Under the pieces are notes generated by a model that had not been told where the DNA came from, searched no databases, and was given only the letters and a program-made list of their open reading frames with translations. From Archangium violaceum (GTDB lineage: Bacteria > Myxococcota > Myxococcia > Myxococcales > Myxococcaceae): a stretch of 64,000 nucleotides of DNA. A program made the translations under genes and the position numbers. The stretch covers positions 2,011,001 through 2,075,000 of the forward strand of contig NZ_CP069396.1 in the NCBI RefSeq assembly GCF_016887565.1, given 5' to 3'. Positions within the stretch are counted from its first letter, which is position 1. Each line of letters begins with the position of its first letter. Shown here one piece after another: positions 17,383-46,135 of this stretch.

Positions 17383-17407
17383 GCAGGCAGCAAGGGGGCA
17401 GGGGAAT

Positions 17408-18016
17408 ATGAGTGGCGCAGCGGTGGCTTGGAACGTGGCCTCTCCGAGGTTGGGGTGGGAGCAGCGGATGGCGTTGACGACCCCGGACGACATGGCACGT
17501 GGGTTGTTCCTCCAGAGCGTGTTGAAGGCCATCCGGGCGCTGGGGGACGAGACCCTGGTGAACCGCTGTACGGCCGTGTGTGGACAGAAGCGCTTCGCCG
17601 ACTTCTTCAACTACCCCATCCGGCTGCACCTCCAGATGATCGACACCGCGATGCCGGCCCTGTCGGCGCGCTATGGAGATGTGGAGCAGGCCCTGTGGCT
17701 GCTGGGCCATTGCGTCGCCATGGACTTCCTGGAGTCCGAGGCGGGCAGGACGATGCAGGTGCTGGTGCGCGGCGAGCCGAAGCGGCTGGTGAACAACCTG
17801 CCGTCGACGTACCAGGTGTCGGTGGATGGAGAGCGCTCGGTGAAGTGGCTGGGGCCGCAGTGTTGCCGGCTCATCATGACGCGCGACTTCATGCCCCCCG
17901 CGTTCCACGAGGGGCAGCTGGTGGCGATGCTCGAGCGGTTGAAGGCCAGCAAGATCAAGGTGACTGGCCGGCAGACGGGCGTGCTCGACAGCGAATACGA
18001 CATCTCCTGGCAATAG
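17408..18016 (+). CDS. DUF2378 (TIGR02265) family protein, copy 3
   Basis: A 202-residue paralogue. The start at 17408 follows a purine-rich GGCAGGGG at 17397-17404; an in-frame codon at 17345 would overlap the upstream gene. Landmarks are QRMALTTPDDMARGLFLQ, KRFADFFNYPIRLHLQMI, a variant of the ALRQLG motif (ALWLLGHCVAMDFL), and LIMTRDFMPPAFHEG with DSEYDISWQ. It is spaced 34 bases from the following TPR gene, so the two DUF2378 copies and the TPR gene may form one transcript. Function unknown. Confidence 0.88.
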   Translation: MSGAAVAWNVASPRLGWEQRMALTTPDDMARGLFLQSVLKAIRALGDETLVNRCTAVCGQKRFADFFNYPIRLHLQMIDTAMPALSARYGDVEQALWLLGHCVAMDFLESEAGRTMQVLVRGEPKRLVNNLPSTYQVSVDGERSVKWLGPQCCRLIMTRDFMPPAFHEGQLVAMLERLKASKIKVTGRQTGVLDSEYDISWQ

Positions 18017-19298: not shown

Positions 19299-19308
19299 TT
19301 CAAATACT

Positions 19309-19341
19309 CCCTCTCCCTCTGGGAGAGGGTTGGGGTGAGGG
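19309..19341 (-). repeat. Dispersed palindromic repeat, copy 2
   Basis: CCCTCTCCC-TCT-GGGAGAGGG followed by TTGGGGTGAGGG: the same element as at 4541 in the opposite orientation. It lies between the convergent ends of the TPR gene and the DUF4230 gene, where a bidirectional transcript end would be expected. Confidence 0.8.
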
Positions 19342-19362
19342 TCTACGTCTCTTGGATTCCCG

Positions 19363-19983
19363 TCACCCGGCGGTGGCCGGAGGAGGCAGCACGTCCACCA
19401 CGTTCACCTCGCGGAACCCCGCCGAGAGGAACAGGGCGCGCAGCGTGTTCTCCGCCGAGCGGCGAGCCTTCTCCTTCAACCGGGTATCGCCCTTCACCTC
19501 GCGCTCGAAGGCCTCGCGGGCCTTCTCCAGCAGGAGGGTCGTCTGGGCGCTGTCGAGGTTGGAGCCGATGACCTCGGTCTCACCCGGCTTCAGCTCCACC
19601 TTCACCTCCAGGGGAGGGAGGGCCACGTCCACGCGAGTGCCCTGAATGCGCATGGAGGAGCCATCCAACCGGCCGAAGTCATAGCCGAGGTGCACGTCCG
19701 CGAAGACGATGGCCCGGCCGCGCGGCGTGTTGATGGAGTAGCGCGCCCAGTTGATGACGTCCTTCCAGAGCGACTCCGTGGCCTGGGGCTCCGGGGAGAA
19801 CTCCACCTTCTTGTAGAGGGACACATCCAGTGTCTCCAACCGGGCGACCTCGCGGACGCGGGTGACGAGCGCTGGCGTGTCGGGCAGAGGGGTGGGCTTG
19901 GGACGGAGCCAGAGGAAGGTTCCCACGGCCCCGGCGGCCAGGGCGACGACGAGGAACAACACCCGCAGGAGGAGGCGCACCAT
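19363..19983 (-). CDS. DUF4230-like membrane-anchored protein
   Basis: A 206-residue protein with a single N-terminal membrane anchor (residues about 3-26, LLLRVLFLVVALAAGAVGTFLW) and an outward-facing domain. The pattern EVARLETLDVSLYKKVEF, a GRAIVFADVHLGYDFGRLD strand pair and an Ala/Glu-rich final helix match DUF4230, a family of unknown function. It is convergent with the TPR gene and divergent from the 2OG-oxygenase gene, whose start is 42 bases away. Confidence 0.8.
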   Translation of the reverse strand: MVRLLLRVLFLVVALAAGAVGTFLWLRPKPTPLPDTPALVTRVREVARLETLDVSLYKKVEFSPEPQATESLWKDVINWARYSINTPRGRAIVFADVHLGYDFGRLDGSSMRIQGTRVDVALPPLEVKVELKPGETEVIGSNLDSAQTTLLLEKAREAFEREVKGDTRLKEKARRSAENTLRALFLSAGFREVNVVDVLPPPATAG

Positions 19984-20025
19984 GGCCCGCCATTCTAGCC
20001 GTTGTGGGGTAGGGTTCGCCGAGCC

Positions 20026-20637
20026 ATGAGCCTGCTGTCCCTTCGGGATGAAGAAATCCAGTCACTCGGTGAGCGGGGCTGGTTCACCCGCGCGTCCTTC
20101 CTCGGAGAGGCGGATGCGCGAGCCGTCCACGCCGAGGCGAGAGCGCGCGTCGAGGCGGGCCACCTGCGCCCCGCGGGCATCCGTCGCGGCGCGGACCACA
20201 CGCTGGACCGCGACACCCGCGGCGACTTCATCACCTGGGTGACGCCGGAGGAGCAGGGCTCGGCGATCGGCCGGCTGCGGGAGGCGTATGCCGCGCTCGG
20301 GGAGACGCTGTCGACGGAGGCCTACCTGGGCCTCGGACGTTTCGACCTGCAGCTCGCCTGGTACCCGGGGGAGGGGGCGAGGTACGCGCGCCACTTCGAT
20401 GCCTTTCCCGGACAGTCCAACCGGCGCGTCACCGCCATCTACTACCTCAACCCGGACTGGGTGCCGGCCCACGGCGGGCTGCTGCGCATCTACCCGGAGG
20501 GCGGACCGGTGGACGTGGAGCCCACGCTCGACAGGCTCGTGGTGTTCCTGAGCGAGCGCATCGAGCACGAGGTGCTGCCCGCGCACGCGCCCCGGCTGGC
20601 GCTCACCGCCTGGTTCTACGGGCGGAGCGCGGGGTGA
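20026..20637 (+). CDS. 2-oxoglutarate/Fe(II)-dependent oxygenase (prolyl-4-hydroxylase-like)
   Basis: A 203-residue enzyme of the P4Hc fold. The iron triad is visible as the HxD of RHFDAFPGQ and the distal His in IEHEVLPAHAPRLA, with the following Arg a candidate 2-oxoglutarate binder. RRVTAIYYLNPDWVPAHGG is the typical strand between them. The ATG at 20026 opens MSLLSLRDEEIQSLGERGWF, the normal short start. The substrate is unknown; related bacterial enzymes hydroxylate proline in proteins. It is followed 72 bases later by the amidohydrolase gene. Confidence 0.9.
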   Translation: MSLLSLRDEEIQSLGERGWFTRASFLGEADARAVHAEARARVEAGHLRPAGIRRGADHTLDRDTRGDFITWVTPEEQGSAIGRLREAYAALGETLSTEAYLGLGRFDLQLAWYPGEGARYARHFDAFPGQSNRRVTAIYYLNPDWVPAHGGLLRIYPEGGPVDVEPTLDRLVVFLSERIEHEVLPAHAPRLALTAWFYGRSAG

Positions 20638-20709
20638 CGCGGCTTCCGGTTGGCGCCGGGCGCGAATGATTGTAGTGCGAGCCGGTCACCCTTCCGTGAG
20701 GACGATGCC

Positions 20710-21972
20710 TTGGACTCGCTACGCGCTCTCTTGTTGCCGGTCGTGCTGCTCCTGTCGTGGGGCAGTGCCTGGGCCCAGGTCACCGCCATCCGCGCGGGCA
20801 GGCTCGTGGATCCGGAGGTGGGCACCGCGCTCGACAACCAGGTCATCCTCGTGGAGGGCTCGCGCATCAAGGCCGTGGGGCCGGGACTCGCCATTCCCGA
20901 GGGCGCCACCGTCATCGACCTGACGGGGGCCACCGTCCTGCCCGGCCTCTTCGACGCCCACACGCACCTGTGCGCCACGCTGGACCCGTCCCAGGACGGA
21001 GGAGAGTTCCTCCTCATGAGCCTGCGGAGCCGCGCCGGCTACCGCGCCCTGCGGGGGGCCGCCCACGCCCGCGAGATGCTGGAGGCGGGCTTCACCACCG
21101 TGCGCGACCTGGGCAACGCCGGAGACTACGCGGACATCGACCTGCGCCGCGCCATCAAGGAGGGCCTGGTGTCCGGCCCCACGATGCTCGCCGCCGGCCG
21201 CATCATCGCCCCCTTTGGTGGCCAGTTCGGCGTGCGCACCCGGCGCGAGGTGCTCGAGGATCCCGAGTACCGTTTCGCGGATACCCGCGATGAGCTGCTC
21301 AAGGCCATCCGCGAGAACATCTTCTTCGGTGCCGACGTCATCAAGGTCGTCGTCGACGGGCAGCGCTATGCCTATTCGACGGACGACCTGCGCTTCATCA
21401 TCGCCGAGGCGGGCAAGTCCGGGCTGAAGGTGGCCGCCCACGCCCAGACGAAGGAGGGCGCCCACCGCGCCATCGAGGCGGGCGTGGCCTCCATCGAGCA
21501 CGGCTTCAAGGCGACGGACGAGGACCTCGCGCTCGCGAAGAAGAACGGCGTGGTGCTCGTCAGCACGGACTTTCCCGAGGACGTGCTGCGCGCGTTCGGC
21601 TGGGACGCGGCTGGTGCCAGGCGCGTCCATGGCAACCAGGTGGAGCGGCTCAAGCGCGCGTGGAAGGCGGGTCTTCCCATCGTCTTCGGCACGGATGTGA
21701 TGGTGGAGGTGCAGGGACAGACGCGCGGCTCGCTCGCCCTCTCCTATATCGACAGCTTCGTCGAGGCGGGCATCCCCCCGCGGGCCATCCTCCAGTCGAT
21801 GACGGTCCACGCGGCCCGCCTGCTGGGCGTGGAGAAGGAGCGGGGCGCCATCAAGCCCGGGCTCCTCGCCGATCTCGTCGCCACCCCGCGCAACCCGCTC
21901 GACGACATCCAGGCGCTCAAGCAGATCCACTTCGTGATGAAGGAGGGCCGGGTGGTCAGGCGCTCTCCGTGA
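20710..21972 (+). CDS. Secreted amidohydrolase (imidazolonepropionase/prolidase-like)
   Basis: A 420-residue metal hydrolase. The start is the TTG at 20710: GAGGA at 20698-20702 is well placed and the product opens with a clean signal peptide (LRALLLPVVLLLSWGSAWAQ), whereas the TTG at 20650 would add 20 residues before it. Metal ligands are all visible: DAHTHL (HxH), the Lys of DVIKVVVDG (carboxylated bridge), AAHAQT, SIEHGF and the Asp of VFGTDV. The group includes Xaa-Pro dipeptidases and carbamate hydrolases. It should act in the periplasm or outside. Its end overlaps the convergent methyltransferase by 17 bases. Confidence 0.9.
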   Translation: MDSLRALLLPVVLLLSWGSAWAQVTAIRAGRLVDPEVGTALDNQVILVEGSRIKAVGPGLAIPEGATVIDLTGATVLPGLFDAHTHLCATLDPSQDGGEFLLMSLRSRAGYRALRGAAHAREMLEAGFTTVRDLGNAGDYADIDLRRAIKEGLVSGPTMLAAGRIIAPFGGQFGVRTRREVLEDPEYRFADTRDELLKAIRENIFFGADVIKVVVDGQRYAYSTDDLRFIIAEAGKSGLKVAAHAQTKEGAHRAIEAGVASIEHGFKATDEDLALAKKNGVVLVSTDFPEDVLRAFGWDAAGARRVHGNQVERLKRAWKAGLPIVFGTDVMVEVQGQTRGSLALSYIDSFVEAGIPPRAILQSMTVHAARLLGVEKERGAIKPGLLADLVATPRNPLDDIQALKQIHFVMKEGRVVRRSP

Positions 21973-34135: not shown

Positions 34136-35575
34136 ATGCGCCTCGCGCTCTTCGGATTCGGCAAACACTCCTGGCCCAGCGTCGAGCGGACGCGGCTGTT
34201 CTACGAGCGGGCGCTCTCGACCCGCTTCACCCTGTTGCCCCTCGAAGGTGAGGAGCCGCTGCCTCCGGACGTGGACGCGGTGCTGTCCTTCTCCAGCAAG
34301 CGGTGCTGGGAGTTGCGGCCGCATCCGCCCGTGCCCCTCCTCTTCGCCATGCACGGCGGCCCCATCCTGGATCAGGAGTTCCTCGCCTCGCAGCTGGGCC
34401 ACCTGGAGACCACGGATGCGATGATCGTCAACTGCACCTCGGACATCTCCATCTTCCGCGAGGTCTTCGCCGGCCCCATGCCGCGGATGTGCCACCTGCC
34501 GCTGCCGGTGGACCCGCGGGTGTTCCATCCCCAGGATCGCTCCGAGTGCCGCGAGTTCCTCTCGGTGGAGGGATATGACTACGTGGTGGGCTTCGTGGGC
34601 CGGCTGGTGCCGCAGAAGGGGGCACACCAGTTCCTGCGCATGGTGGCGGAGCTGAAGCGCCGGCTGCACCCCAAGCGGGTGGCTGGCGTGATGGTGGGCA
34701 ACTACTGGGTCGACTACCCAGTGCTGGCCTACACGCCGGACTATCAGCGGTACATGGGACGGCTGCTGGAGGAGCTGGGGCTGAAGGAGGATCTCTTCTA
34801 CTTCCCCGCTGGCCTCCCGGACGAGGACCTGGCGGCGGTGTACGGAGCACTGGACGTGCTCGTCCACCCCACCAGCTCCATCGACGAGAACTTCGGCTAC
34901 GTGCCGGTGGAGGCCATGGCCTGCGGGGTGCCGGTGGTGGGCTCGGCCTACGGGGGCCTCAAGGACACGGTGCTGCCGGGAGAGACGGGCGCGCTCATGC
35001 GCACCTGGACCACGCGCACGGGCATTCGCATGGACCTGGAGAGGGGCGTGGAGGAGGTGGTGCGGCTGCTCCAGGACGAGCCGTTGCGGGCGCGCATGTC
35101 CGAGGCGGCGCTGCGGCGGGCCCGCACCGCCTACAGCGAGGAGGTGTGCACGCGCGTGCTGTGTGACGCGGTGTCCGATGCGATCGCCGCACGGGCCCAG
35201 GGTCCGGTGCGTCCGGTGGCGCTGGCGCCCCGGAGGCCCGAGGCGGAGGTGTCCGGTTTGCTCCCGCCCGCGAATCGCCCCTGGGAGCACTACCAGGGCG
35301 TGGTGGCCCACTACACCACCAGCGAGGCGCCGCCCGAGCCCGGCCCCCGCTCGTCACTGCGGCTGGCCGCTCCCTTGAAGGAGGAGTCCCCTGGACGGTA
35401 CCGGTTGGATGACGCGGCCTGGCCCGCCCTCTTCTCCCTGGACGCCGCGGAGCACCGTCTGGCCGAGCGCTGCCGCGAGCCCGTAAAGGTGGAGCAGCTC
35501 GAGCGCGAGGGGTTGTGGGACCGAGATCGCGTGGTGCACCTGCTGCGGTGGGGGTTGCTGCTCATCGGTGATTGA
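34136..35575 (+). CDS. GT4-family glycosyltransferase with C-terminal extension
   Basis: A 479-residue retaining glycosyltransferase of the GT-B fold. The core (about 1-365) has the acceptor half with FAMHGGPI and the nucleotide-sugar half starting VGFVGRLVPQKGAHQFL, with the GT4 E-x7-E-like motif SIDENFGYVPVEAMACGVPV. Residues 370-479 are a Pro/Ala-rich linker and a small domain (YRLDDAAWPALFSLDAAEHR). It precedes, and overlaps by 8 bases, a GT2 glycosyltransferase. Together they face the minus-strand heptose-nucleotide operon, suggesting assembly of a heptose-containing glycan. Confidence 0.9.
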   Translation: MRLALFGFGKHSWPSVERTRLFYERALSTRFTLLPLEGEEPLPPDVDAVLSFSSKRCWELRPHPPVPLLFAMHGGPILDQEFLASQLGHLETTDAMIVNCTSDISIFREVFAGPMPRMCHLPLPVDPRVFHPQDRSECREFLSVEGYDYVVGFVGRLVPQKGAHQFLRMVAELKRRLHPKRVAGVMVGNYWVDYPVLAYTPDYQRYMGRLLEELGLKEDLFYFPAGLPDEDLAAVYGALDVLVHPTSSIDENFGYVPVEAMACGVPVVGSAYGGLKDTVLPGETGALMRTWTTRTGIRMDLERGVEEVVRLLQDEPLRARMSEAALRRARTAYSEEVCTRVLCDAVSDAIAARAQGPVRPVALAPRRPEAEVSGLLPPANRPWEHYQGVVAHYTTSEAPPEPGPRSSLRLAAPLKEESPGRYRLDDAAWPALFSLDAAEHRLAERCREPVKVEQLEREGLWDRDRVVHLLRWGLLLIGD

Positions 35576-36476
35576 CCGCGAGGTGGGCAGCGGGTTTGCT
35601 CGGCGGCGCATGAACGCGCGCCCCGAGCTGTCCGTCATCATTCCGTGGAGCAACCGCCCCGAGCTGGAGACGACCCTTCGCAGGAACTCGCGGCAGTTCA
35701 CCGCCTGTCCGGCGGAGGTCGTGGTGGTCAACTGCGGAGGCGACCCGGAGCTGTTCCGCCGGGTGCTGGGAGCCAGGCCCTTTCCCGGGCTGCGTGGCGT
35801 GGAGCTGCCGGGCGTGGGCTTCAACAAGTCACTGGCGCTCAACGTGGGTGTCGGCGCGGCCCGGGCCGAGCGCCTGTTCTTCCTCGACACGGACATCGTG
35901 CTCGGGGCGGACCTCCTCCGTCCGGCGCTCTCCCAGCTCGGCCGCCGCCATGTCGTCACGGTGGATCGCACCTTCGAGTCCCAGCGCAAGCCCGGCCGCG
36001 AGCGCTCCAACCTGATGGAGATGGCCTACTCGGTGCGCTTCGTGGACGCCAAGGGCCGCTCGGCCCAGGTGGAGACCAACCTCATGCGCCCGCGCGAGGG
36101 CAGCCGCAGCGCCCCGGGTCTGGTCTTCCTGCGGCGCAAGCACTTCCTCGCCGTGGACGGGATGAACTCCGACCTGTCCGGCTGGGGCTGGGAGGATCTG
36201 GACTTGCTGGTGCGGTTGCAGCTCGAGCTGGGCCTGTCACCGCGCCGCTCCGGCAGCGTCACCCACCTCACCCACGGGGACGAGCACAGGGACCTGCAGG
36301 GCCAGAGCCGCGCCGCCAGCGAGCATCTCAACTTCGCTCGCTGCCTCGAGTGCTACCGCGTGGGCCACTACCGGGGCACCTATACCGACGACACCCAGAC
36401 CTGGAACGGACGGTGGGTGGAGCTCGAGGCCTCGCGGCTCAAGTCTGGCGCGGGTCGCCGCACAGCCGCCCCATGA
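35568..36476 (+). CDS. GT2-like glycosyltransferase with galactosyltransferase-type C-terminus
   Basis: A 302-residue inverting glycosyltransferase of the GT-A fold: ELSVIIPWSNRPELETTL at the start, the DxD metal site as FLDTDIVLG, and the conserved GMNSDLSGWGWEDLDLL characteristic of the galactosyltransferase C-terminal region. The GTG at 35568 overlaps the upstream gene; ATG 35610 (MNARPELSV) is a credible alternative. Its 3' end overlaps that of the convergent gmhA-like gene by 38 bases. The sugar donor is not known; GDP-heptose from the adjacent operon is a reasonable guess. Confidence 0.88.
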   Translation: MIDREVGSGFARRRMNARPELSVIIPWSNRPELETTLRRNSRQFTACPAEVVVVNCGGDPELFRRVLGARPFPGLRGVELPGVGFNKSLALNVGVGAARAERLFFLDTDIVLGADLLRPALSQLGRRHVVTVDRTFESQRKPGRERSNLMEMAYSVRFVDAKGRSAQVETNLMRPREGSRSAPGLVFLRRKHFLAVDGMNSDLSGWGWEDLDLLVRLQLELGLSPRRSGSVTHLTHGDEHRDLQGQSRAASEHLNFARCLECYRVGHYRGTYTDDTQTWNGRWVELEASRLKSGAGRRTAAP

Positions 36477-37002
36477 CGATGTGGCCGAACGACAGGTGCA
36501 GGTCCTCCACCAACTGCATGTGGTGCTCGCGCACGTGCAGCACCTGCTGGGCCAGCTCCTTGAGCCGTCCCCCGTCATAGCCACACAGGCCCAGCGTGCG
36601 CCCTCCGTGCTCGTTGGCATACGTGATGGCCCGCAGCACGTTGCGCGAGTTGCCGCTGCCGGAGATGCCGATGACCAGGTCCCCCGGCCGCATCAGGTTC
36701 TTGAGCGGCTCCTCGAAGATGGACTCGTAGGAGACGTCGTTGGCGTACGCCATCATCATCGGCACGTTGTCGTTGAGGCAGATGCCTCGCAGGCGCCGTC
36801 CGTCCCTGGCGGGGATGCCCTTGTTCCAGTCCGAGATGAAGTGCGAGGCGGTGGAGCCGCTGCCTCCATTGCCCAGGGTGAAGATCTGCTGATCTCCCCG
36901 CCAGGCGTCCTCGATGAGGTCCACCGCGCGCTCGACCTCTTGCAGATCCAGACCCTGGATGGCCCGGATCATCCGCGCGTAATAGGTCTGGCTGTAGCTC
37001 AT
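36439..37002 (-). CDS. gmhA: SIS-domain phosphoheptose isomerase
   Basis: A 187-residue SIS protein of the GmhA (sedoheptulose 7-phosphate isomerase) group, the first step in heptose-nucleotide synthesis. SIS motifs are LGNGGSGSTASHFISDWNKG and VIGISGSGNSRNVL, and the C-terminal VEDLHLSFGHIVMGRL matches the Glu/His catalytic end of GmhA. Length is normal. It is the last gene of the heptose operon and its ATG overlaps the stop of the kinase gene (ATGA, 36999-37002), indicating translational coupling. Confidence 0.92.
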   Translation of the reverse strand: MSYSQTYYARMIRAIQGLDLQEVERAVDLIEDAWRGDQQIFTLGNGGSGSTASHFISDWNKGIPARDGRRLRGICLNDNVPMMMAYANDVSYESIFEEPLKNLMRPGDLVIGISGSGNSRNVLRAITYANEHGGRTLGLCGYDGGRLKELAQQVLHVREHHMQLVEDLHLSFGHIVMGRLCGDPRQT

Positions 37003-37994
37003 GGTGTCACTCCCTGGCGTATGCGGGTGATGGTGCTGCCCTGGGGTTGCAGGCGCAGGGGAACCCTGCGCAGCCCGGGGAGCGCCTGGATGATGGCGGG
37101 GTGGCGCTCCTCCGGCGCATCGAACAGCAGGAAGCCGCCGCCGCCCGCGCCCAGCAACTTACCGCCCAGCGCCCCGGCCTTCCGGGCGCGCTCGTACCAC
37201 TCGTCGATCTCGGTCGTGGAGATGCCGCGGCTCAGCTCGCGCTTGAGCTGCCAGTTGGCGTCCAGCAGGGCCCCGAAGCCCTCCAGGTGCCCGGTCTCCA
37301 GCTCGCGCTTCATCTGATACGCGAGCTCCACCATCCGCCCCAGGCTGTCGCGCGTGTGCGGCCGCGTGCGGATGGCCTCGTTCTGGCCCTGGAGCATGGC
37401 CGAGGCGCTGCGGGTGATGCCCGTGTAGAACGTCAGCAGCCGGCGTCCCAGCGCCGCGAGCACCTCCGGCCGGCAGGCCACCGGGTGCACCGACACGCGC
37501 TCGTCGGCGTGGAACTCGATGAGGTTCAGCCCACCGTAGGCGGAGGCGTACTGGTCCTGCTTGCCGATGGGCTCGCCCAGTCGCTCGAGCTCCACATGAC
37601 ACGCCTGACGGGCGAGGGACTCGGGCTCCACCTGACGGCCCTGGTGGGCGTGCAGGGCGTGCAGCAGCGCCACCGTGAAGCTTCCGGAGGAGCCCAGCCC
37701 CGTGCCCTGCGCGGGCACGTCGGACATCGAGACCAGGTCCAGTCCGTCCTCGATGCCCAGCAGCTGAAGGGCCTCGCGCACCCGCGGGTGCTGGAGCTGT
37801 CCGGCCCGCTCGGCGCTGCCCTGCATCTCGCCCCCCAGCCGCAGCATGCCGTCGAAGGACTCCTTCACCGCCACGTACACGTACCGGTCGAGCGTGGCCG
37901 ACACCACCGCGCCCCCGTGCTCGCGGTAGTACGAGGGCAGATCGCTGCCCCCACCCACGAAGCTCATGCGCAGTGGAGCATGGGCGATGATCAT
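36999..37994 (-). CDS. hddA: GHMP kinase: D-glycero-alpha-D-manno-heptose-7-phosphate kinase
   Basis: A 331-residue GHMP-superfamily kinase. The N-terminal APLRMSFVGGGSDLPSYYRE and the ATP-binding AQGTGLGSSGSFTVALLHAL are typical of HddA and related fucokinase-like sugar kinases, and the third GHMP motif is GGKLLGAGGGGFLLF. HddA phosphorylates C1 of heptose 7-phosphate to give the 1,7-bisphosphate in the GDP-heptose branch. It overlaps both neighbours by 4 bases, in ATGA arrangements with the fusion gene upstream and gmhA downstream. Confidence 0.92.
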   Translation of the reverse strand: MIIAHAPLRMSFVGGGSDLPSYYREHGGAVVSATLDRYVYVAVKESFDGMLRLGGEMQGSAERAGQLQHPRVREALQLLGIEDGLDLVSMSDVPAQGTGLGSSGSFTVALLHALHAHQGRQVEPESLARQACHVELERLGEPIGKQDQYASAYGGLNLIEFHADERVSVHPVACRPEVLAALGRRLLTFYTGITRSASAMLQGQNEAIRTRPHTRDSLGRMVELAYQMKRELETGHLEGFGALLDANWQLKRELSRGISTTEIDEWYERARKAGALGGKLLGAGGGGFLLFDAPEERHPAIIQALPGLRRVPLRLQPQGSTITRIRQGVTP

Positions 37995-39868
37995 CCGCCC
38001 ACTCCCAGCACCACGTCCGCGCAGGCCCGGGTGGCTCGCACCAGCGGATGCTCTCCGCCCTCGCGCGACTGGTAGAGCGCCCGCGCCGTGGTCTCGTCCT
38101 GACCGCGCCAGGAGCGGTCCCTCAGGAAGCGGGTGAGGCGCTCGGGCTCGGGTGCCTCCACGTACAGCTTGAGCGCCAGGTGCGGCTGGAGCCAGGGCAC
38201 GTCCAGCGCGGGTACTCCCTCGATGATGAGCACCTCGCCGGGTTCGAGCCGCAGCGATTCCCCCGGGTCGCGGCGCGTGCGCGTGGCGCGATCGTACCAG
38301 GGCATGTCCACGCGCTCGCCCCGGCGCAGCCGCCCCAGGGCGTCCTCGATGGCCTCGTAATCGAAGTTGTCCGCCAGGCCGTCCGCGCGCCGCTGGCCAA
38401 CGGAGCGGATCCAGTTGTCGAGCGAGACGATGGAGGCGGCGCGGCCCTGGGCACGCAGCACCTCGCGCAGCACGGACGAGGTGGTGCTCTTGCCAGCGTG
38501 CGCCAGCCCTCCCACGCCCACCCACGCTCCGGGCGGGATGTCCCGCGCCAGCGGTTCGAGCCGGGCGCGCAGCGCCGCATGGCCCACGAGGATGAACTCC
38601 ACCGCCTCGGTCAGCGAGAGGAAGACGTAGTCCGGACGGTCCGGGAAGCGAGCGTCGGAGCCGGCCTCGCCCGTCCTCAGCAGCACGGAGCGCACTCCGG
38701 CCTGTCGTGCCGTGCGCACATCCACCGTGGTGTCGCCCACCATCCACGAGTCGCCTAGCTCCAGGCGCAGCTCGCGGGCGGCACGCTCGATGAGCCCGGT
38801 GGCCGGCTTGCGGCAGTCGCACACCTTCTTCAGTTCGGGCCGCTCGCCAGCGAAGCCTCCATCCGGGTGGTGGGGGCACCAGTAGAGCCGATCCAGGTAG
38901 GCGCCCTGCCGTCCCAGCAGCAGCTCCAGCCGGGAGTGGATGCGCCGCAGCTCCTGCTCCGTGCACTCGCCACGAGCCACCACCGGCTGGTTGGTGACGA
39001 GCGCGGTGCGCAGCCCCGCCTGGTTGAGCCGGCGCAACGCCGCTCCCACCCCGTCGAGCAGCTCCACCTCCTCGGGGCGCCGCACGTAGCCCGCGTGCCG
39101 GTTGAGCGTGCCGTCGCGATCCAACAGCACCGCCGGCCGGGGCGCCTCCAGCGAGCAGCGCTGGGGCCTGCCCGAGGCATGGTCCGCCTGCACGCGCGCG
39201 TAGCGCTCCGGGGTGCCCATGTCCTTGATGTACTCGGGGCTGCGATAGCCCACCAGCCGCGCGCCGCGGGCGAGCAGCCGGGGGAAGAACGTCCGGGCCA
39301 GGTCCATTCCCTCGGCCTCGACGCCCTGGAGCACCCGCCGCTCCATCACGTAGAGGGCGGCGTTGGCCAGGTTGGGCACCAGCCGCTCCGGAGGGTGGGG
39401 CGGCGCGTGGAAGGCCACCACCCGGTCCTCCTCATCCACCTCCACGAGGTCCGAGTCCTGGGGATGGTCATTGGGGTGGAGGAAGAGGGTGAGGTCCGCG
39501 CTGGCGCGCTGGTGGTGGGACCACATCCGCTCCAGGTCCACCTCCAGCAGGGTATCCCCATAGAGGACGAGGAAGCGCTCGGCGAGCACGGGCAGGGCCT
39601 GCATCAGTGCCCCCGCGGTGCCCAGGGGCCGCTCCTCCCGCACGTAGCGCAGCCTCATGCCCTCCACGGAGCCCAGGGCGCTCTCGAGTGTCTCGCCCCC
39701 ATGGCCGGTGAGCAGCACGGCCTCGGTGAAGCCATGGCGCAGCCCCAGCTCGAGCTGGTGCCGCAGCAGCGGCTTGCCGCCCACGGGAGCCATGGGCTTG
39801 GGCAGCGCGCCGAGCAGTCCGCCCATGCGCGAGCCTCGCCCACCCGCCAGGATGACCATCTGCTTCAT
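37991..39868 (-). CDS. Three-domain fusion: heptose-1-P nucleotidyltransferase, GmhB phosphatase, uridine-kinase-like P-loop domain
   Basis: A 625-residue fusion from the ATG at 39868 (a GTG at 39877 adds three residues). Residues 1-230 are a sugar-phosphate nucleotidyltransferase (LAGGRGSRMGG, PKPM, LYGDTLLEVDL), matching HddC. About 240-405 is a GmhB-type HAD phosphatase: LLDRDGTLNRH, plus the zinc loop WCPHHPDGG and KVCDCRKPATG that distinguishes GmhB. About 440-620 is a uridine kinase/phosphoribulokinase-like P-loop domain (GGLAHAGKSTT; VSLDNW; PWYDRATRTRRDP; VLIIEGVPALD) of unknown substrate. With hddA and gmhA it supplies the GDP-heptose pathway. The kinase module is not a step of that pathway, so its role is open. 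Confidence 0.9.
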   Translation of the reverse strand: MKQMVILAGGRGSRMGGLLGALPKPMAPVGGKPLLRHQLELGLRHGFTEAVLLTGHGGETLESALGSVEGMRLRYVREERPLGTAGALMQALPVLAERFLVLYGDTLLEVDLERMWSHHQRASADLTLFLHPNDHPQDSDLVEVDEEDRVVAFHAPPHPPERLVPNLANAALYVMERRVLQGVEAEGMDLARTFFPRLLARGARLVGYRSPEYIKDMGTPERYARVQADHASGRPQRCSLEAPRPAVLLDRDGTLNRHAGYVRRPEEVELLDGVGAALRRLNQAGLRTALVTNQPVVARGECTEQELRRIHSRLELLLGRQGAYLDRLYWCPHHPDGGFAGERPELKKVCDCRKPATGLIERAARELRLELGDSWMVGDTTVDVRTARQAGVRSVLLRTGEAGSDARFPDRPDYVFLSLTEAVEFILVGHAALRARLEPLARDIPPGAWVGVGGLAHAGKSTTSSVLREVLRAQGRAASIVSLDNWIRSVGQRRADGLADNFDYEAIEDALGRLRRGERVDMPWYDRATRTRRDPGESLRLEPGEVLIIEGVPALDVPWLQPHLALKLYVEAPEPERLTRFLRDRSWRGQDETTARALYQSREGGEHPLVRATRACADVVLGVGG

Positions 39869-39877
39869 GGGGCCCAC

Positions 39878-41560
39878 TCAGTGACTGGACAGCGCGGGCC
39901 GGCTGGGGCTGGTGACCAGGGGCCGCTCGCTCAGCGGGACGACCAGGTTCGAGGCCAGGGCATCGAGCTCGGGATAGGTCTCGTCGATGAGGGCCTGCAG
40001 GCCCGCGGCCACGGTCTCGGGCGGAGTCTGGGGCGCGAAGAGCAGGCGCAGCCGGCCGCGCTGGCGCGACCAGTCGGAGTCCCACTCCACGGTGTTGCCG
40101 GGGAAGCGGCGGGCCACGCGCTCGGTCAGGGCCCGCAGCCGCTCACTGAGGGGCCGCACCGCCTCGCTCTCCAGGTGGATCTCCGCCCCCACCTGCTCGC
40201 CGTAGTCGAGCAGCTCGTAGTGCAGGGCGCGGGGCCAGCTGGGCGGACCCACGCGGCGGAAGTGGTTGAAGCGACCGCGTGCCTCCAACAGGGGCCGGGC
40301 CTGGCGCGTGTAGTGGGCGACGATCTGCTCGAACCCGGGCCTGCCACCGGGCGGGGTCGGGGCCAGGCAGAAGAGCGCGTCCTGGGCGGGCGGAGGGCCG
40401 ACGCGCTCCAGGCTGACGCCCTCCGGCAGCGCGGGCAGGTGGTCGAAGTCCACGGTGAAGCGCGCCAGGTCCGCCAGCGCCACGGGACGCCCCTCCGCGC
40501 GGGCGCGCTCCACCTCGAGCAGCAGGGTGATGGCTCGCCGGTAGTGGCCGAAGTGCAGGAAGTACTCCTCGAAGGTGACGTGCGGGAGGTAGCGCGGGAA
40601 GATCTGGTTGAGCCGGTTGGCCACGAAGGCCATGGCGCTCCAGTGCTCGGGCGAGATGGCGTAGCCGGCCATGTGCGCCAGCCCGGCCAGCTCGATGACG
40701 TGCCCGGCGTAGTAGCAGTGGTTCTCCAGCAGGTTGTCGATGATCAGCGTGTCACGCAGCTCGTGCAGCAGCGTGCCCGGCTCGGCGGGAGCGCCGGACG
40801 CCGACAGCGCTTCCACCTGCTCCAGCACCGCGCCGAGCAGGAAGAGGATGTCGAGCTGTCCCTCCAGGAAGCCCTGGGCCGGCTCGCGGAAGGACTCCAG
40901 GCCGCGGATGCGCGCGGCGGCGGTGCACAGGCCCTCGGTGAGGTGCACCTTGCGGCAGACCTGGAAGCCGCCGTGGTGGTGCGCGTCCACCGCCTGCTCC
41001 ATCAGTCCCCGCACGTCCAGGGCCTGCTGGCCCATGAAGAAGGGCGCCTGCCGGGGCTCGGGCTCCAGGTACGCGAGCGCGTAGAGCTGGTGACCCAGCT
41101 CGATGCCATCGGTCACGTTGAGCTGGCGGCTGTTGAGGGCGATCTCCCGGAACGAGGTCCCCACCGTGGGCAGCGGCAGCCCCGGCTCCACGCCCGCCAT
41201 CACCACGTAGGCGAAGCTCTGCCACGGATGGAACTCGCCCTCCACGTCGCGCTGGAGGATGAAGGGGCGCCGGGCCTCGTCGCGGTGGACGAACCGCTCC
41301 AGGCCCTCGAGCATGGTGCGCTTGCCCAGCCGGGCGTTGCCCCAGCCGTTGATGATGTGCCCCAGGTGCGGCAGCGAGTCGCGCTCGAGCACATCCGCGA
41401 CATGACGGGCCATCGCGTGCGCCAGCAGATCGGCGGCCAGTTGGGTGGAGCGCGTGTCCAGCGTGCACGGCTCGCGCCGCATCCGCTCACGGAACGCGAG
41501 GAACGCCCGCTCCTCGCGGGGGGAGAGCTCGAAAGGCCACCAGAAGCGATCGTCCGTCAT
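39878..41560 (-). CDS. Unknown helical protein upstream of the heptose operon
   Basis: A 560-residue protein with no recognised family and no signal or membrane segment. The first 400 residues look all-helical and are rich in His and aromatic residues (TQLAADLLAHAMARHVADVL, LPHLGHIINGWGNARLGKRT, ENHCYYAGHVIELAGLAHMA, FEEYFLHFGHYRRAITLLL). The last 150 are alpha/beta. The many conserved-looking His could bind metal. Its stop is 9 bases from the ATG of the fusion gene, so it is the first gene of the heptose operon. The ATG at 41560 is preferred to a GTG at 41593, because the GTG would sit only 9 bases after a strong hairpin. Confidence 0.8.
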   Translation of the reverse strand: MTDDRFWWPFELSPREERAFLAFRERMRREPCTLDTRSTQLAADLLAHAMARHVADVLERDSLPHLGHIINGWGNARLGKRTMLEGLERFVHRDEARRPFILQRDVEGEFHPWQSFAYVVMAGVEPGLPLPTVGTSFREIALNSRQLNVTDGIELGHQLYALAYLEPEPRQAPFFMGQQALDVRGLMEQAVDAHHHGGFQVCRKVHLTEGLCTAAARIRGLESFREPAQGFLEGQLDILFLLGAVLEQVEALSASGAPAEPGTLLHELRDTLIIDNLLENHCYYAGHVIELAGLAHMAGYAISPEHWSAMAFVANRLNQIFPRYLPHVTFEEYFLHFGHYRRAITLLLEVERARAEGRPVALADLARFTVDFDHLPALPEGVSLERVGPPPAQDALFCLAPTPPGGRPGFEQIVAHYTRQARPLLEARGRFNHFRRVGPPSWPRALHYELLDYGEQVGAEIHLESEAVRPLSERLRALTERVARRFPGNTVEWDSDWSRQRGRLRLLFAPQTPPETVAAGLQALIDETYPELDALASNLVVPLSERPLVTSPSRPALSSH

Positions 41561-41601
41561 GGGGATTGGGCGGGAAGAGGGCGGGTGCTTCACTAGGGAA
41601 G

Positions 41602-41633: not shown

Positions 41634-41640
41634 GGATTCT

Positions 41641-41686
41641 CACGCCTCCGAGGCCCTGACGGGCCCCGGTTCAGCCCCGGCGTGCG
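41641..41686 (-). repeat. 46-base structured direct repeat, copy A (after peptide A)
   Basis: Identical over 46 bases to 42012-42057. It can fold: the ends CACGCC and GGCGTG pair (6 bp), with an inner arm GGCCC-TGAC-GGGCC and a short CCGG/CCGG arm, a small cloverleaf-like shape. Each copy lies 30 and 25 bases past the stop of a short peptide gene. No T-run follows, so it may be an mRNA 3' stabiliser or processing element. Confidence 0.75.
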
Positions 41687-41716: not shown

Positions 41717-41872
41717 CTACTCGCAGCAGCCCTGGGTGCAGCAGCCCGGGATGGCGGCCTTGCTCATACCTCCCATGGCCTGGGCAAGCTCCTCACGGGT
41801 GAGCTTGCGGCCGGGGGTGCGCTGGCTCTTCTGCTGCTCCTTCTGCTCCGTCTTCTTGCTGTCCTGGCTCAT
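41717..41872 (-). CDS. Short Cys-rich peptide with double-glycine leader (RiPP-precursor-like), copy A
   Basis: A 51-residue peptide. Residues 1-22 are hydrophilic (KKTEQKEQQKSQRTPGRK), residues 23-35 read KLTREELAQAMGG, the ELxxAxGG pattern of double-glycine leaders cut by C39-type peptidases, and residues 36-51 form the core MSKAAIPGCCTQGCCE with four Cys. AAGGAGG ends 7 bases before the ATG at 41872. A longer frame to 41989 exists but lacks a binding site. A close paralogue follows at 42083-42250. No transporter, lanthipeptide synthetase or radical-SAM gene is adjacent. An alternative is a small zinc- or iron-binding protein. Confidence 0.72.
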   Translation of the reverse strand: MSQDSKKTEQKEQQKSQRTPGRKLTREELAQAMGGMSKAAIPGCCTQGCCE

Positions 41873-41908
41873 ACGTGTGCCTCCTTGGTTGGGGTACGGC
41901 GCAGAGCG

Positions 41909-41937
41909 TTTTAGTGGAGAGGACGTTGCAGGAGCAA
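41909..41937 (-). promoter_or_regulatory. Candidate promoter of peptide gene A
   Basis: On the minus strand a -35-like TTGCTC (41932-41937) and a -10-like CTAAAA (41909-41914) are 17 bases apart. The same two boxes at the same spacing precede the second peptide gene, while the spacer sequence differs, which argues for function. The flanking TTGCTCCTGCAACG is identical in both. Confidence 0.55.
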
Positions 41938-42011
41938 TTACGTCACGGTGGCTCGGCGGCTCGGTACCGGGAGACGCGAAGTTTTCCATCCAGCGAGCAC
42001 TGAGGGGGGTT

Positions 42012-42057
42012 CACGCCTCCGAGGCCCTGACGGGCCCCGGTTCAGCCCCGGCGTGCG
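42012..42057 (-). repeat. 46-base structured direct repeat, copy B (after peptide B)
   Basis: The exact duplicate of 41641-41686, located 25 bases past the stop of peptide gene B. The distance between copies is 371 bases, close to the spacing of the two peptide genes, so gene and element were duplicated together. The flanking bases have diverged, but this element is unchanged. Confidence 0.75.
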
Positions 42058-42082
42058 AGGGCTTCAGGTGACGGCTGGGGGA

Positions 42083-42250
42083 CTACCGGGGATCGTTGTC
42101 GCAGCAGCCCTGGGTGCAGCAGCCGGGGATGGCGGCCTTGCTCGAACCGCCCATGGCCTGGGCAAGCTCCTCACGGGTGAGCTTGCGGCCGGGGGTGCGC
42201 TGGCCCTTCTGCTGCTCCTTCTGCTCCGTCTTCTTGCTGTCCTGGCTCAT
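42083..42250 (-). CDS. Short Cys-rich peptide with double-glycine leader (RiPP-precursor-like), copy B
   Basis: A 55-residue paralogue of the peptide at 41717. Residues 1-35 differ from copy A at only one place (Gly for Ser at 16), including the leader end LTREELAQAMGG. The core is SSKAAIPGCCTQGCC plus a DNDPR tail in place of Glu. AAGGAGG precedes the ATG at 42250. A conserved leader with variation at the core ends is what precursor families show. It starts 97 bases after the start-side end of ppx on the same strand, but has its own promoter-like boxes. Confidence 0.74.
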   Translation of the reverse strand: MSQDSKKTEQKEQQKGQRTPGRKLTREELAQAMGGSSKAAIPGCCTQGCCDNDPR

Positions 42251-42283
42251 GCGTGTGCCTCCTTGGTTGTACGGCGGAGGAAC

Positions 42284-42346: not shown

Positions 42347-43849
42347 CTAACGGCCGACGTGCAGGGCGAGCCGCTTGCCGAAGACGCGGCGGAAGAGGCT
42401 CGTCTCCTGCTCCACGTTCCATAGCTCCAGGTCCACCGGCTGGCGGCTCTTGAGGTGCAGGGACACCGCGTCGCGGCCGTTGACGGCCCGCAGCTCCTTC
42501 ACCGGCTGGTGGTGACTGCTGTCCAGCGAGTTCGCCACGCGCAGCAGCGTCGCCAGCTTTCGCACCAGGCGTGCTTCCGCGGGGCTCAGCCCCTCCATCC
42601 CCGAGTGGTTCAGCTCGGGCGGGCTGCGTTGGTGGTAGCGCGCCACCCGCGCCACCAGCTCGCGCTCGCGATCCGCCAGACCCGGGATGTCGCCGTGGTG
42701 GATGAGGTAATAGGTGTGCTTGTGGTGGCGCTCGTAGCTGACGGCGTTGCCCACGTCGTGCAGCAGCGCGGCGGTCTCCAGGTACGGCCTGCACGAGAGC
42801 GGCAGGTTGTGCAGCGCGGCCAGATCGTCGAAGAGCGTGAGCGCGAGCTTCGCCACCTGGCGCGCGTGCTTCTCGTCGAACAGGAGGCGCCGCCCCATGG
42901 CCACCGCCGCGTCCGCCAACGAGTGGTCCTCGCGCGTCTCGTCCTGCCGGTACAGCAGGTCCACCAGCAGGCCATCGCGCAGGCCCCGGTTCACGGCGGT
43001 GACGCTCTCCACGCCCAGGTGCTTCGCCACCCGCTCGAGGATGGTGGCCCCCGCGACGATGATGTCCGCGCGCCTCGGGTCGAAGCGCTTGCGCCGCCGC
43101 TCCGGGGGCATCTCCGCCAGCGTCTCCACCGCCTGCTGCAACTGGCGCAGGGAGACGTGCCCGGTGCCCTCGCTGGCCGCGTAGCCCACCACCGCGTTGA
43201 TGGTCCCGGAGGAGCCCAGCGCCACCCGGGGCAGGTGGGCGAGGTGCTCGGGGAGGCCCTTGCGCATCTGCTCCTCCACGTAGCTGCGCATCAGCCGCAA
43301 CTGCTTGGGCGTCACCTTCCCGGCCGCGTCGAACATCTCCGTCAGCCGCACCGAGCCCAACGGCAGGCTCCACAGGTCATCCGGCCGCTCGCCCGTGGCG
43401 ATGGCCACCTCGGTGGAGCCCCCGCCGATGTCCACCAGCAGCGAGCGCGTCTGGGGCGGCTTGCGGTGCAGCACCCCCAGGCAGATGAGGCGCGCCTCCT
43501 CCTTGCCGCTCACCACCTCCAGGTTCAGCCCCGCCTCGTCGCGCACCCGCTGGACGATCTCATCGCGGTTGCGCGCGTCGCGCATCGCGCTGGTGGCCAC
43601 CGCCCGCACCCGCGCCTTGTGCCGCCGGCACAGCGCCGCGTAGCGCCGCAGCGTGGACAGCAGGCGATCCGCCGTCTCCTTCGGCATCTCACCGCTGGAG
43701 AAGACACCCTCTCCAGGGCGGATGGGGTCTCGCTCCTGGTGCAGGGTCTCGAGCGAGCCATCGGCATCCGGCCGGGCCAGCTCCAGGCGCACGGCGTTGG
43801 TACCCACGTCAATGGCGGCGAGTACGGGCTGTAGGGACGAGGTGGGCAT
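42347..43849 (-). CDS. ppx: Exopolyphosphatase (Ppx/GppA) with C-terminal HD domain
   Basis: A 500-residue Ppx/GppA phosphatase that removes terminal phosphates from polyphosphate or pppGpp. The actin-like ATPase fold shows AAIDVGTNAVRLELA, the catalytic Glu region AVATSAMRDARNRDE, and VDIGGGSTEVAIATG. From about residue 315 an HD-type domain follows (AALLHDVGNAVSYERHHKHT), normal for the long form of the family. It is divergent from ppk, 99 bases apart, so the synthesising and degrading enzymes of polyphosphate probably share control. Confidence 0.94.
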   Translation of the reverse strand: MPTSSLQPVLAAIDVGTNAVRLELARPDADGSLETLHQERDPIRPGEGVFSSGEMPKETADRLLSTLRRYAALCRRHKARVRAVATSAMRDARNRDEIVQRVRDEAGLNLEVVSGKEEARLICLGVLHRKPPQTRSLLVDIGGGSTEVAIATGERPDDLWSLPLGSVRLTEMFDAAGKVTPKQLRLMRSYVEEQMRKGLPEHLAHLPRVALGSSGTINAVVGYAASEGTGHVSLRQLQQAVETLAEMPPERRRKRFDPRRADIIVAGATILERVAKHLGVESVTAVNRGLRDGLLVDLLYRQDETREDHSLADAAVAMGRRLLFDEKHARQVAKLALTLFDDLAALHNLPLSCRPYLETAALLHDVGNAVSYERHHKHTYYLIHHGDIPGLADRERELVARVARYHQRSPPELNHSGMEGLSPAEARLVRKLATLLRVANSLDSSHHQPVKELRAVNGRDAVSLHLKSRQPVDLELWNVEQETSLFRRVFGKRLALHVGR

Positions 43850-43948
43850 GGGTTCAGGATTTGAGAAAGGTTGCGGCTCGAAGCATGGGGCCCTCTGCCG
43901 GGCCGGCCCATCTTCTAATAGAGTTTCGTGACAGCTCCGTGACGTGAC

Positions 43949-46135
43949 GTGTCAGACCACCTGCAAGACTCTCAGGCCGTGCAATTCAACGATCCACAGC
44001 TCTTCATCAACCGAGAGCTGTCGTGGCTGGCCTTCAACGAGCGGGTGCTGGACGACGCCCGTGACCGTGAGCTCCCTCTCTACGAGCGATTGAAGTTCTT
44101 CGCCATCGCTTCCTCGAACCTGGACGAGTTCTTCATGGTCCGCGTGGCGGGCCTGAAGCAGCAGCTGGCCAGCGGCGTGGCCGAGACGGCCGCGGACGGC
44201 ATGCTGCCCGCGGAGCAGCTCAGCGCCATCAGCGAGCGCGTCCACAGGCTGGTGGACTCGGCCTCGCGCCTCTGGGTGGAGGAGCTCCAGCCCGGGCTGA
44301 CGGCCGCGGGCGTCAGCGTCCTCACCCGGGACAAGCTGACGGCGGAGCAGAAGGCGGCCGCGCGCACCTGGTTCACCACCTCCGTCTTCCCGGCCCTCAC
44401 CCCGCTGGCGGTGGATCCGGGCCACCCCTTTCCCCACCTGCGCAACAAGTCCCTCAACGTGGCGGTGCTGCTGCGGCGCGAGGGCCCCAAGCGCCGGCGC
44501 AACGCGCGCAGCTCCTCGCTGGCCGTGGTGCAGGTGCCCAGCGTGCTCCGCCAGCTGGTGCCCATGCCGGTGGACAAGGGCCTCGCGTTCCTGCTGCTGG
44601 GCGAGGTCATCGCCCTGTGCGCGGCCGACCTCTTCCCCGGCTACGTGGTGGAGCACACCACCGCCTTCCGCGTGACGCGCAACTGGGACCTCAACGTGGA
44701 CGATGAGGAGAGCGAGGATCTGCTCTCCACCATCCAGGACGAGCTGCGCCGGCGGGACCGGGGCGCCGCGGTGCGCCTGGAGCTGGACGCCTCGGCCAGC
44801 CCTCAAATCGAGTCCCTGCTCACCGCGGCCCTGAAGCTGGGGCCCATGGATGTGTACCGGCAGCAGGCGCCGTTGCAGCCCTCGGATTTGATGGGGCTCC
44901 TGGATGTCGAGCCCCGGCCGGAGTTGCGCGTGGAGCCCTTCGTGCCCGCTGTGCCTCCGGTGCTGCGCGACGTCGAGTCGCTCTTCGGGGTCGTCGCCGA
45001 ACGGGACATCCTCCTGCACCACCCCTACGAGTCCTTCGACCCGGTGGTGCGCTTGCTGGAGGAGGCCGCGGAGGATCCGGATGTCCTGGCCATCAAGCAG
45101 ACGCTGTACCGCACCAGTGGGGACAGTCCCATTGCCCGGGCGCTGTCGCGCGCGGTGGAGAACGGCAAGCAGGTGGCGGTGCTGGTGGAGATAAAAGCCC
45201 GCCTGGACGAGGCCAACAACATCGCCTGGGCGCGGAAGATGGAGGAGAGCGGGGTGCACGTCGTCTACGGCCTCATCGGCCTGAAGACGCACGCCAAGGT
45301 GGTGCTGGTGGTGCGCCGTGAGGGCAACGGCATCCGCCGTTACGTGCACCTGGGCACGGGCAACTACAACCCCCACACCGCGCGCCTGTACACGGACCTG
45401 TCGCTCTTCACCTCGCGCGAGGAGATAGCGGACGACGTCAGCGCGCTCTTCAACATGCTCACCGGCTACGCGGTGGCGCCGCAGTGGAAGCGGCTGGCGG
45501 TGGCGCCCATGGGCCTGCAGGAGCGGGTGCTCTCGCTCATCCAGCGCGAGGCGGAGAAGGCCCGGCGCGGCGAGCCCGCGCGCATCGTGGCGAAGATGAA
45601 CTCGCTGGTGGACGCCACCGTCATCCGCGCCCTCTACGCGGCCAGCCAGGCGGGGGTGGACATCGACCTGCTGGTGCGAGGCATCTGCTGCCTGCGGCCG
45701 GGAGGGCCGGGCGTGAGCGAGCGCATCCGCGTGACGAGCGTGGTGGACCGCTTCCTGGAGCACAGCCGGGTGTTCGCCTTCGGAGCGGGTGCCAACCCGG
45801 AGGTGTGGATGAGCAGCGCGGACTGGATGCCGCGCAACTTCCTGCGCCGCGTGGAGGTGATGTTCCCCGTGGAGGACCCGGCCATCCGCCAGCGGTTGCT
45901 GGACGAGGTGCTGGGCGTCGCGCTCGCGGACAACGTGAAGGCGCGGAGGCTGCAGGTGGACGGCTCCTACGTGCCGGTGGGAAGGAATGGACACCAGGTG
46001 CGCAGCCAGTCGGTGCTGATGGAGCGGGCGAAGCGCAACAGCCACCAGGACCCCAAGCCGTTGGAGGCGCTGCGCCACGCCACGGCCCCGGATGCGCCCA
46101 CGCCCTCACGGCAGGTGCCGCAGACTTCGGGGTGA
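43949..46135 (+). CDS. ppk: Polyphosphate kinase 1
   Basis: A 728-residue PPK1, which makes polyphosphate from ATP. The N-terminal FINRELSWLAFNERVLDDA and SSNLDEFFMVRVAGLKQQ are signature stretches. The catalytic domain has YVHLGTGNYNPHTARLYTD, whose His (about 467) corresponds to the autophosphorylated histidine, and IDLLVRGICCLRPG further on. The length is standard plus a 30-residue C-terminal tail. It starts at a GTG at 43949 and is divergent from ppx. Confidence 0.96.
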   Translation: MSDHLQDSQAVQFNDPQLFINRELSWLAFNERVLDDARDRELPLYERLKFFAIASSNLDEFFMVRVAGLKQQLASGVAETAADGMLPAEQLSAISERVHRLVDSASRLWVEELQPGLTAAGVSVLTRDKLTAEQKAAARTWFTTSVFPALTPLAVDPGHPFPHLRNKSLNVAVLLRREGPKRRRNARSSSLAVVQVPSVLRQLVPMPVDKGLAFLLLGEVIALCAADLFPGYVVEHTTAFRVTRNWDLNVDDEESEDLLSTIQDELRRRDRGAAVRLELDASASPQIESLLTAALKLGPMDVYRQQAPLQPSDLMGLLDVEPRPELRVEPFVPAVPPVLRDVESLFGVVAERDILLHHPYESFDPVVRLLEEAAEDPDVLAIKQTLYRTSGDSPIARALSRAVENGKQVAVLVEIKARLDEANNIAWARKMEESGVHVVYGLIGLKTHAKVVLVVRREGNGIRRYVHLGTGNYNPHTARLYTDLSLFTSREEIADDVSALFNMLTGYAVAPQWKRLAVAPMGLQERVLSLIQREAEKARRGEPARIVAKMNSLVDATVIRALYAASQAGVDIDLLVRGICCLRPGGPGVSERIRVTSVVDRFLEHSRVFAFGAGANPEVWMSSADWMPRNFLRRVEVMFPVEDPAIRQRLLDEVLGVALADNVKARRLQVDGSYVPVGRNGHQVRSQSVLMERAKRNSHQDPKPLEALRHATAPDAPTPSRQVPQTSG

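Follow-up and report, generated by a model that had tools for sequence, protein, structure and literature searches.

To our knowledge, few glycosylated RiPPs are known. The glycocins (sublancin, glycocin F and thermoglycocin) have a Cys-rich precursor, a glycosyltransferase, a double glycine and a C39-ABC exporter, as far as the accessible part of PMC12457901 describes them. In predicted RiPP contexts, glycosyltransferases fused to an RRE were noted in 2020 by RRE-Finder outside the known classes, and RREs on PF00535 glycosyltransferases followed in 2025 (accessible parts of PMC7470986 and PMC12710340). Mycofactocin is a RiPP with a GT2 and an oligo-glycosylated product, and class I lanthipeptides make use of an RRE and have a core with Thr and Cys. 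That heptose can be attached to side chains of a protein (Ser) is known from the autotransporter heptosyltransferase TibC (PMC4358343).

Here we analyse a window of 64,000 nucleotides from Archangium violaceum (contig NZ_CP069396.1, positions 2,011,001 to 2,075,000), which contains a cluster that is a candidate new class of glycosylated RiPP. With the glycocins it shares a Cys-rich precursor and a glycosyltransferase; a C39-ABC exporter adjoins two of six known loci, and part of the family has a double glycine. The differences are a GT4 glycosyltransferase with an RRE-like tail, a second glycosyltransferase, a part of only 16-22 residues after the double glycine with the pattern CC-TQ-CC, and a toroid protein of no known family. 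Unlike in the glycocins, no thioredoxin-like gene was noticed among the cluster genes read, and the cluster in the window lacks their C39 exporter. The described RRE-glycosyltransferase fusions resemble our GT4, but the accessible text of PMC7470986 and PMC12710340 names no precursor, product or GT4 type, and an overlap is possible. Compared to mycofactocin the cluster has a Cys-rich core and an RRE-like domain on the glycosyltransferase, and no radical SAM maturase gene of the MftC type lies beside the precursors, except for a radical SAM gene in a single locus (L054). In contrast to class I lanthipeptides, a LanB lies near one locus of the six, and the search for LanB gave no match in three of the host genomes. 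TibC differs in its substrate, a large autotransporter, and is absent from the four solved sequences nearest to our GT4 at E 1e-10. Searches of open-licence literature, by listings with the opening lines of abstracts, turned up no description of the precursor, of the set of GT4-RRE and toroid protein, or of heptose on a RiPP.

Two small genes on the minus strand encode the precursors. Peptide A (42083..42250, 55 residues) has a leader that ends in RKLTREELAQAMGG and the core SSKAAIPGCCTQGCCDNDPR. Peptide B (41717..41872, 51 residues) has the core MSKAAIPGCCTQGCCE. Both open reading frames had been proposed in an earlier note on this DNA and are present as described, each with the ribosome-binding site AAGGAGG (42258..42264 for A and 41880..41886 for B, both on the minus strand) ending 7 bases 5' of the ATG. 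The near-identity of the first 35 residues also holds, with a single change (S16G), as do the differences in the core (M36S and the ends, E versus DNDPR). The likeness extends past the coding part. It includes the ribosome-binding site and a GC-rich element of 47 identical bases after each gene (42011..42057 after A and 41640..41686 after B, minus strand), which by its fold forms a hairpin and is possibly an attenuator. Precursors A and B are a tandem duplication of one unit. Since this copy is seemingly young, the likeness of A and B alone says little about selection. Spurious reading frames can be ruled out by the ribosome-binding sites and by homologues in other genomes; because such relatives exist, a chance origin is very unlikely. 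A Ppx/GppA phosphatase gene (Pfam) and a polyphosphate-kinase-like gene (assigned by eye) border the cluster (42347-46135); neither is a conserved neighbour of the precursors in G077 and G079.

We searched for the peptides in 145 genomes of the order. Strong relatives occur in four: this genome (G000), G045 of the same genus, and G077 and G079, which belong to another, sister genus. The first search gave matches in 110 of the 145 genomes at E values up to 1, with values below 1e-10 in the four only, and most of the weak matches look like noise. A six-frame scan did not find the motif C[CT]TQxCC at the weak-match loci L003-L005, L009-L034 and L086; across 103 sequences the scan found it at the ten known precursors only. 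Scanning a genome collection with two short peptide patterns from the 571-residue protein encoded next to the precursors, an approach by which distant members can be missed, yielded two further loci. L054 is labelled as an Acidobacteria MAG and L055 as a Deltaproteobacteria MAG. Since a sample of the phylum of L054 included the genome of L055, we speak of both as one second group.

The family thus consists of ten precursors in six genomes, with two copies in G045, three in tandem in L054 and one in L055. AAGGAGG precedes seven of the ten, and a shorter AGGAG site lies before all three of L054. Each precursor has an N-terminus of 14-32 residues, a leader box (consensus RKLx[RK][EDK][DE][LI]), a linker of 8-14 residues, a core (consensus GC[CT]TQxCC[ED]) and a tail of 0-9 residues. 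The R, K and L of the box and the G, C, T, Q, C and C of the core are identical in all ten sequences; N-terminus, linker and tail vary. Hence a short ribosomal precursor, a conserved leader motif (the RKL box) and a separate core, the features by which a RiPP is recognised, are all present.

The argument from a variable core behind a preserved leader, put forward in the earlier note as the mark of selection on precursors, fails in the larger family: judged from the ten aligned sequences, the core ranks with the best-conserved parts. The same note regarded an invariant core with a variable leader as evidence against a precursor. The core is indeed fixed, yet so is the leader box, and dedicated enzymes accompany the precursors. 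We consider the reading of A and B as RiPP precursors well supported and very likely.

The double glycine has to be viewed similarly. In the four double-glycine leaders that were aligned, Leu stands at -7 and -12, which agrees with the hydrophobic residues that most C39 substrates have at these positions (accessible part of PMC12457901); the proposed fit to the C39 rule is thus supported. As a trait of the family the double glycine does not stand, since only six of the ten precursors have it. In the other four the box still has Leu and Leu/Ile at the corresponding places, from which we infer that the box serves leader recognition first.

In all six loci the precursor or precursors, the toroid gene, the GT4 and the GT2 lie within about 8 kb. 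Within 195 genomes of the phylum, a precursor profile, a profile of the GT4 tail and the full-length toroid protein match the same four genomes. Besides these, the toroid search gave matches to the C-terminal part alone in G027 and G028, and the precursor profile a weak match in G186 (E 6.6e-4), a genome in which we saw no precursor. The two loci of the second group repeat the gene set. In the phylum of L054, the toroid protein occurs in two of 396 sampled genomes, both already known. Dedicated genes therefore co-occur with the precursor in the four genomes and the two further loci.

The arrangement varies between loci. In the window, GT4 and GT2 lie on the plus strand; facing them on the minus strand are a gmhA-like gene, an hddA-like gene, a fusion gene, the 571-residue toroid gene and the two precursors. 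In G079, an HlyD-family gene (Pfam), a C39-ABC gene and the genes of GT4 and GT2 share one direction and point at the toroid gene and the precursor, which lie on the opposite strand. A second adaptor-like reading frame (seen by eye) stands between the HlyD-family and C39-ABC genes, and the layout of G077 is alike. L055 has the precursor, a gmhA-like gene and the toroid homologue on the plus strand, in this order, and GT2 and GT4 on the minus strand. The view that A and B form an orphan system with no modification gene next door has to be given up: the two glycosyltransferase genes are at a distance of about 5 to 8 kb, the adjoining toroid gene belongs to the conserved set, and all three are conserved neighbours. 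That the glycosyltransferase genes of the window are transcribed in the opposite direction to the precursors counts against the pathway proposed below.

The GT4 (34136..35575, plus strand) has 479 residues. Its body is nearest to MshA (NCBIfam, under the cut-off), its solved relatives by sequence are 3c48 and similar entries, and the E-x7-E motif is kept in five of five aligned sequences. The L054 copy (11461-12765) has a broken frame, shortened in front and with the tail in another frame than the body, which also counts against that pathway; either decay or an assembly error could account for it.

The C-terminal domain of GT4 (residues ~399-479; 35330..35572, plus strand) would tie the enzyme to RiPPs. 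An AlphaFold2 model of the last 117 residues, built from five sequences (mean pLDDT 78), predicts strands (45-48, 52-56, 59-62 and 70-72), three helices (75-83, 90-95 and 101-110) and then a strand. A second-look comparison to the PDB is led by NisB (Z 7.7), TigE (7.5), TbtB (7.5) and LynD (7.3), and TruD, MccB, MadB, ThcOx, TbiB1 and a lasso B1 protein appear lower among the best 50 matches listed. These proteins bear RREs. The scores are modest, and other winged-helix proteins score like the RREs (GATOR1/KICSTOR with Z 7.2, a methyltransferase with 6.4). With Foldseek the top rows are YcfD-like ribosomal oxygenases (E 0.052 and 0.064) and TigE comes third. No sequence profile matches an RRE in the tail, and sequence searches of solved structures gave no convincing relative of it. 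The predicted order of strands and helices equals the order that defines an RRE in the accessible part of PMC12710340. From the model, the C-terminal domain is likely, but not proven, to be an RRE.

The GT2 (35610..36476, plus strand) has a beta-4-galactosyltransferase-like C-terminal motif, GWGWEDLD, which together with a DxD motif is kept in all six loci. Its nearest solved structure by sequence is beta-4-galactosyltransferase 7, and at E 0.01 its solved relatives are beta-4-galactosyltransferases and others. A further glycosyltransferase-like reading frame of 419 residues (L036, 8896-10155) lies divergent from the G079 precursor and is possibly a third glycosyltransferase; Pfam gave no match for it.

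The third conserved gene (39878..41593, minus strand) encodes 571 residues from a GTG start (560 from the ATG at 41560) and has a precursor nearby in each of the six loci. The protein has no Pfam match over the cut-off and no NCBIfam match, no convincing relative among solved structures by sequence, and no relatives in viral contigs or plasmids. A model from six sequences (pLDDT 77) predicts an alpha/alpha toroid for residues ~30-360 and a separate alpha/beta domain for residues ~430-535. In the second-look list the toroid matches an unsaturated glucuronyl hydrolase (Z 15.7, rmsd 3.9, 286 aligned residues); squalene-hopene cyclase, transcobalamin, AprG and cellobiose 2-epimerase also match, and Foldseek gave no match under E 0.05. 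With helical folds, such Z scores may reflect a common arrangement only. The invariant stretches VCRKxHLTEGxC, ENHCYYAGH and FLHxGHYRR include Cys and His residues and, judged by conservation, suggest an active or metal site.

Three candidate genomes were set aside. G027 and G028 match the C-terminal domain only and have no such cluster, and the match in G038 covers 74 residues in a doubtful frame. The C-terminal domain alone recurs in NERD-like reading frames of G027 and G028 (Pfam E 0.03, under the cut-off; L045 8795-10003 and L046 1850-3058), two genomes of another family.

At lower window coordinates than the toroid gene lie three heptose-type sugar genes on the minus strand, which form a heptose-nucleotide operon. 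The first encodes a fusion of 628 residues (37991..39877), in which an HddC-like sugar-1-phosphate nucleotidyltransferase is joined to a GmhB-like phosphatase and a P-loop kinase; this third domain is a uridine-kinase-like P-loop. The gene follows the toroid gene with a gap of 0 bp. It overlaps by 4 bp with the gene of an HddA-like GHMP kinase (36999..37994), which overlaps by 4 bp with the gene of a GmhA-like SIS protein (36439..37002). The best NCBIfam models of the latter two are HddA and gmhA, each below its cut-off. In L055 a gmhA-like gene separates the precursor from the toroid gene.

At 1e-60 the fusion occurs in eight of the 145 order genomes: in all four with the cluster and in four of the 141 without it (one of them partial). 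The association has a Fisher p of 4e-6, which is not corrected for kinship and, since the four cluster genomes are two pairs of relatives, has less true weight than the number suggests. Furthermore, the heptose genes of G077 and G079 are unlinked to the peptide cluster, and G082 has them without a peptide cluster. In all three genomes the fusion is part of a glycan-type cluster that also has hddA- and gmhA-like genes. Among the reading frames read near the L054 precursors no heptose gene was noticed. The unlinked copies and G082 weaken the case for the heptose genes as a strict part of the cluster, and these genes may serve a polysaccharide.

A C39-type exporter, of the kind whose cleavage signal the earlier note saw in the leader, adjoins the cluster in G079, together with an HlyD-family gene, and a near-identical C39-ABC gene adjoins it in G077. 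Within the window there is none: all six C39 domains of the host genome lie outside. A close relative of the G079 exporter (about 60%) is present in G000, in G045 and in the four congeners without the cluster. Because cluster-free congeners have these relatives too, none can be singled out as the exporter of the cluster. G045 also has a C39-ABC homologue (55% to that of G079) on the cluster contig (G045:C2:109023-111200), some 34-41 kb away, possibly an exporter acting in trans.

From genes whose co-occurrence and conservation are observed, and from predicted folds, we infer a pathway for glycosylation, sugar, order of steps, toroid function and export in the window strain. Peptides A and B are probably precursors of a glycosylated RiPP, whose leader would be bound by the RRE-bearing GT4 that also glycosylates the core. 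The RRE-like tail would dock onto the leader box RKLxRxxL, and the GT4 would place the first sugar on a Cys or Thr of the core GCCTQGCC. The GT2 would then extend the glycan. The toroid protein would be a dedicated maturation enzyme, acting before or after glycosylation; its target would be either the peptide, in which it might for example pair Cys residues or form a ring, or the sugar. The sugar of the window strain is perhaps heptose, which the gmhA/hddA/hddC-gmhB-type genes directly next to the toroid gene would provide. In the branch with a double glycine, a C39-ABC exporter would cut the leader after GG and export the product; precursors without it would have their leader cut by another protease.

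A bolder version of this proposal, which we put forward tentatively, is that the set of RRE-GT4, GT2 and toroid enzyme defines a new RiPP class that yields (oligo)glycosylated peptides, perhaps carrying heptose, with Cys pairs and a conserved function. Because the core is fixed across two bacterial groups, this function would be that of a metal or redox cofactor or of a signal, instead of a part in an arms race.

Alternatively, the product could be a peptide-derived cofactor or metallophore, similar to mycofactocin, with a fixed metabolic job and with glycosylation for solubility or retention. This reading partly coincides with the glycosylated RiPP proposed above and differs in function. The core conserved across two groups fits, as does a weak resemblance of the GT2 to MftF (E 1.9e-5, far below the cut-off), which oligo-glycosylates a RiPP cofactor (PMC7491314, accessible part). 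However, the GT2 scores higher against HfsG and EpsD, glycosyltransferases of polysaccharide synthesis, than against MftF, and no conserved user enzyme was found beside the cluster. Among frames of at least 250 residues, CxxxCxxC marks a real radical SAM gene in one of the six loci only (L054); two other matches are spurious frames that overlap other genes and were left out. We regard a mycofactocin-like cofactor as unlikely.

If the invariant Thr were dehydrated and closed onto a Cys, the product would be a lanthipeptide-like thioether RiPP, the toroid protein a LanC-like cyclase and the sugars secondary. The predicted alpha/alpha toroid and the invariant Thr and Cys of the core agree with this, and L054 lends it further weight. 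There, two ABC genes without a C39 domain, the toroid homologue, GT4, GT2, a prolyl oligopeptidase gene and the three precursors are followed by a radical SAM-SPASM protein (16922-18010) and a full LanB (18243-21212). A LanC-like reading frame (seen by eye) lies upstream at 2775-4250. Perhaps L054 unites lanthipeptide and glycopeptide genes in one cluster, or two separate clusters are neighbours there. Yet no LanB was found in G077, G079 and G196 or among the window genes scanned; in G000 and G045 a LanB lies away from the cluster, and only in G195 near it. LanB as a general partner is thereby ruled out. The toroid fold is also common to glycosidases, epimerases and terpene cyclases. LanC is absent among the best 50 structure matches listed for it, which does not count against a LanC-like role. 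Thioether chemistry as the main modification is quite unlikely.

It is improbable that the peptides are cytosolic Cys-rich metal or thiol proteins (chelators, metallochaperones or redox peptides) with incidental sugar genes. A core fixed across two groups, unlike that of fast-evolving bacteriocins, and the four precursors without a double glycine would suit such proteins, but the co-occurrence with the GT4 tail and the toroid protein, the C39 exporter adjoining in G077 and G079, and a conserved leader box separate from the core argue against them. An unmodified class II bacteriocin, as the double glycine, the Leu at -7 and -12 in the four aligned leaders and the C39 exporter in G077 and G079 might suggest, is hardly credible given the co-occurring GT4, GT2 and toroid genes, the double glycine missing in four of ten precursors and the mere 16-22 residues that follow it.

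If the proposed glycosylated RiPP is real, a glycosyltransferase with its own leader-binding domain would serve as a portable tool that directs a sugar to a peptide of choice, and the RRE-bearing GT4 could guide genome mining. With the toroid protein, a new enzyme of maturation would be added. For the family, the fixed core raises the question of which chemistry needs GC(C/T)TQxCC(E/D).
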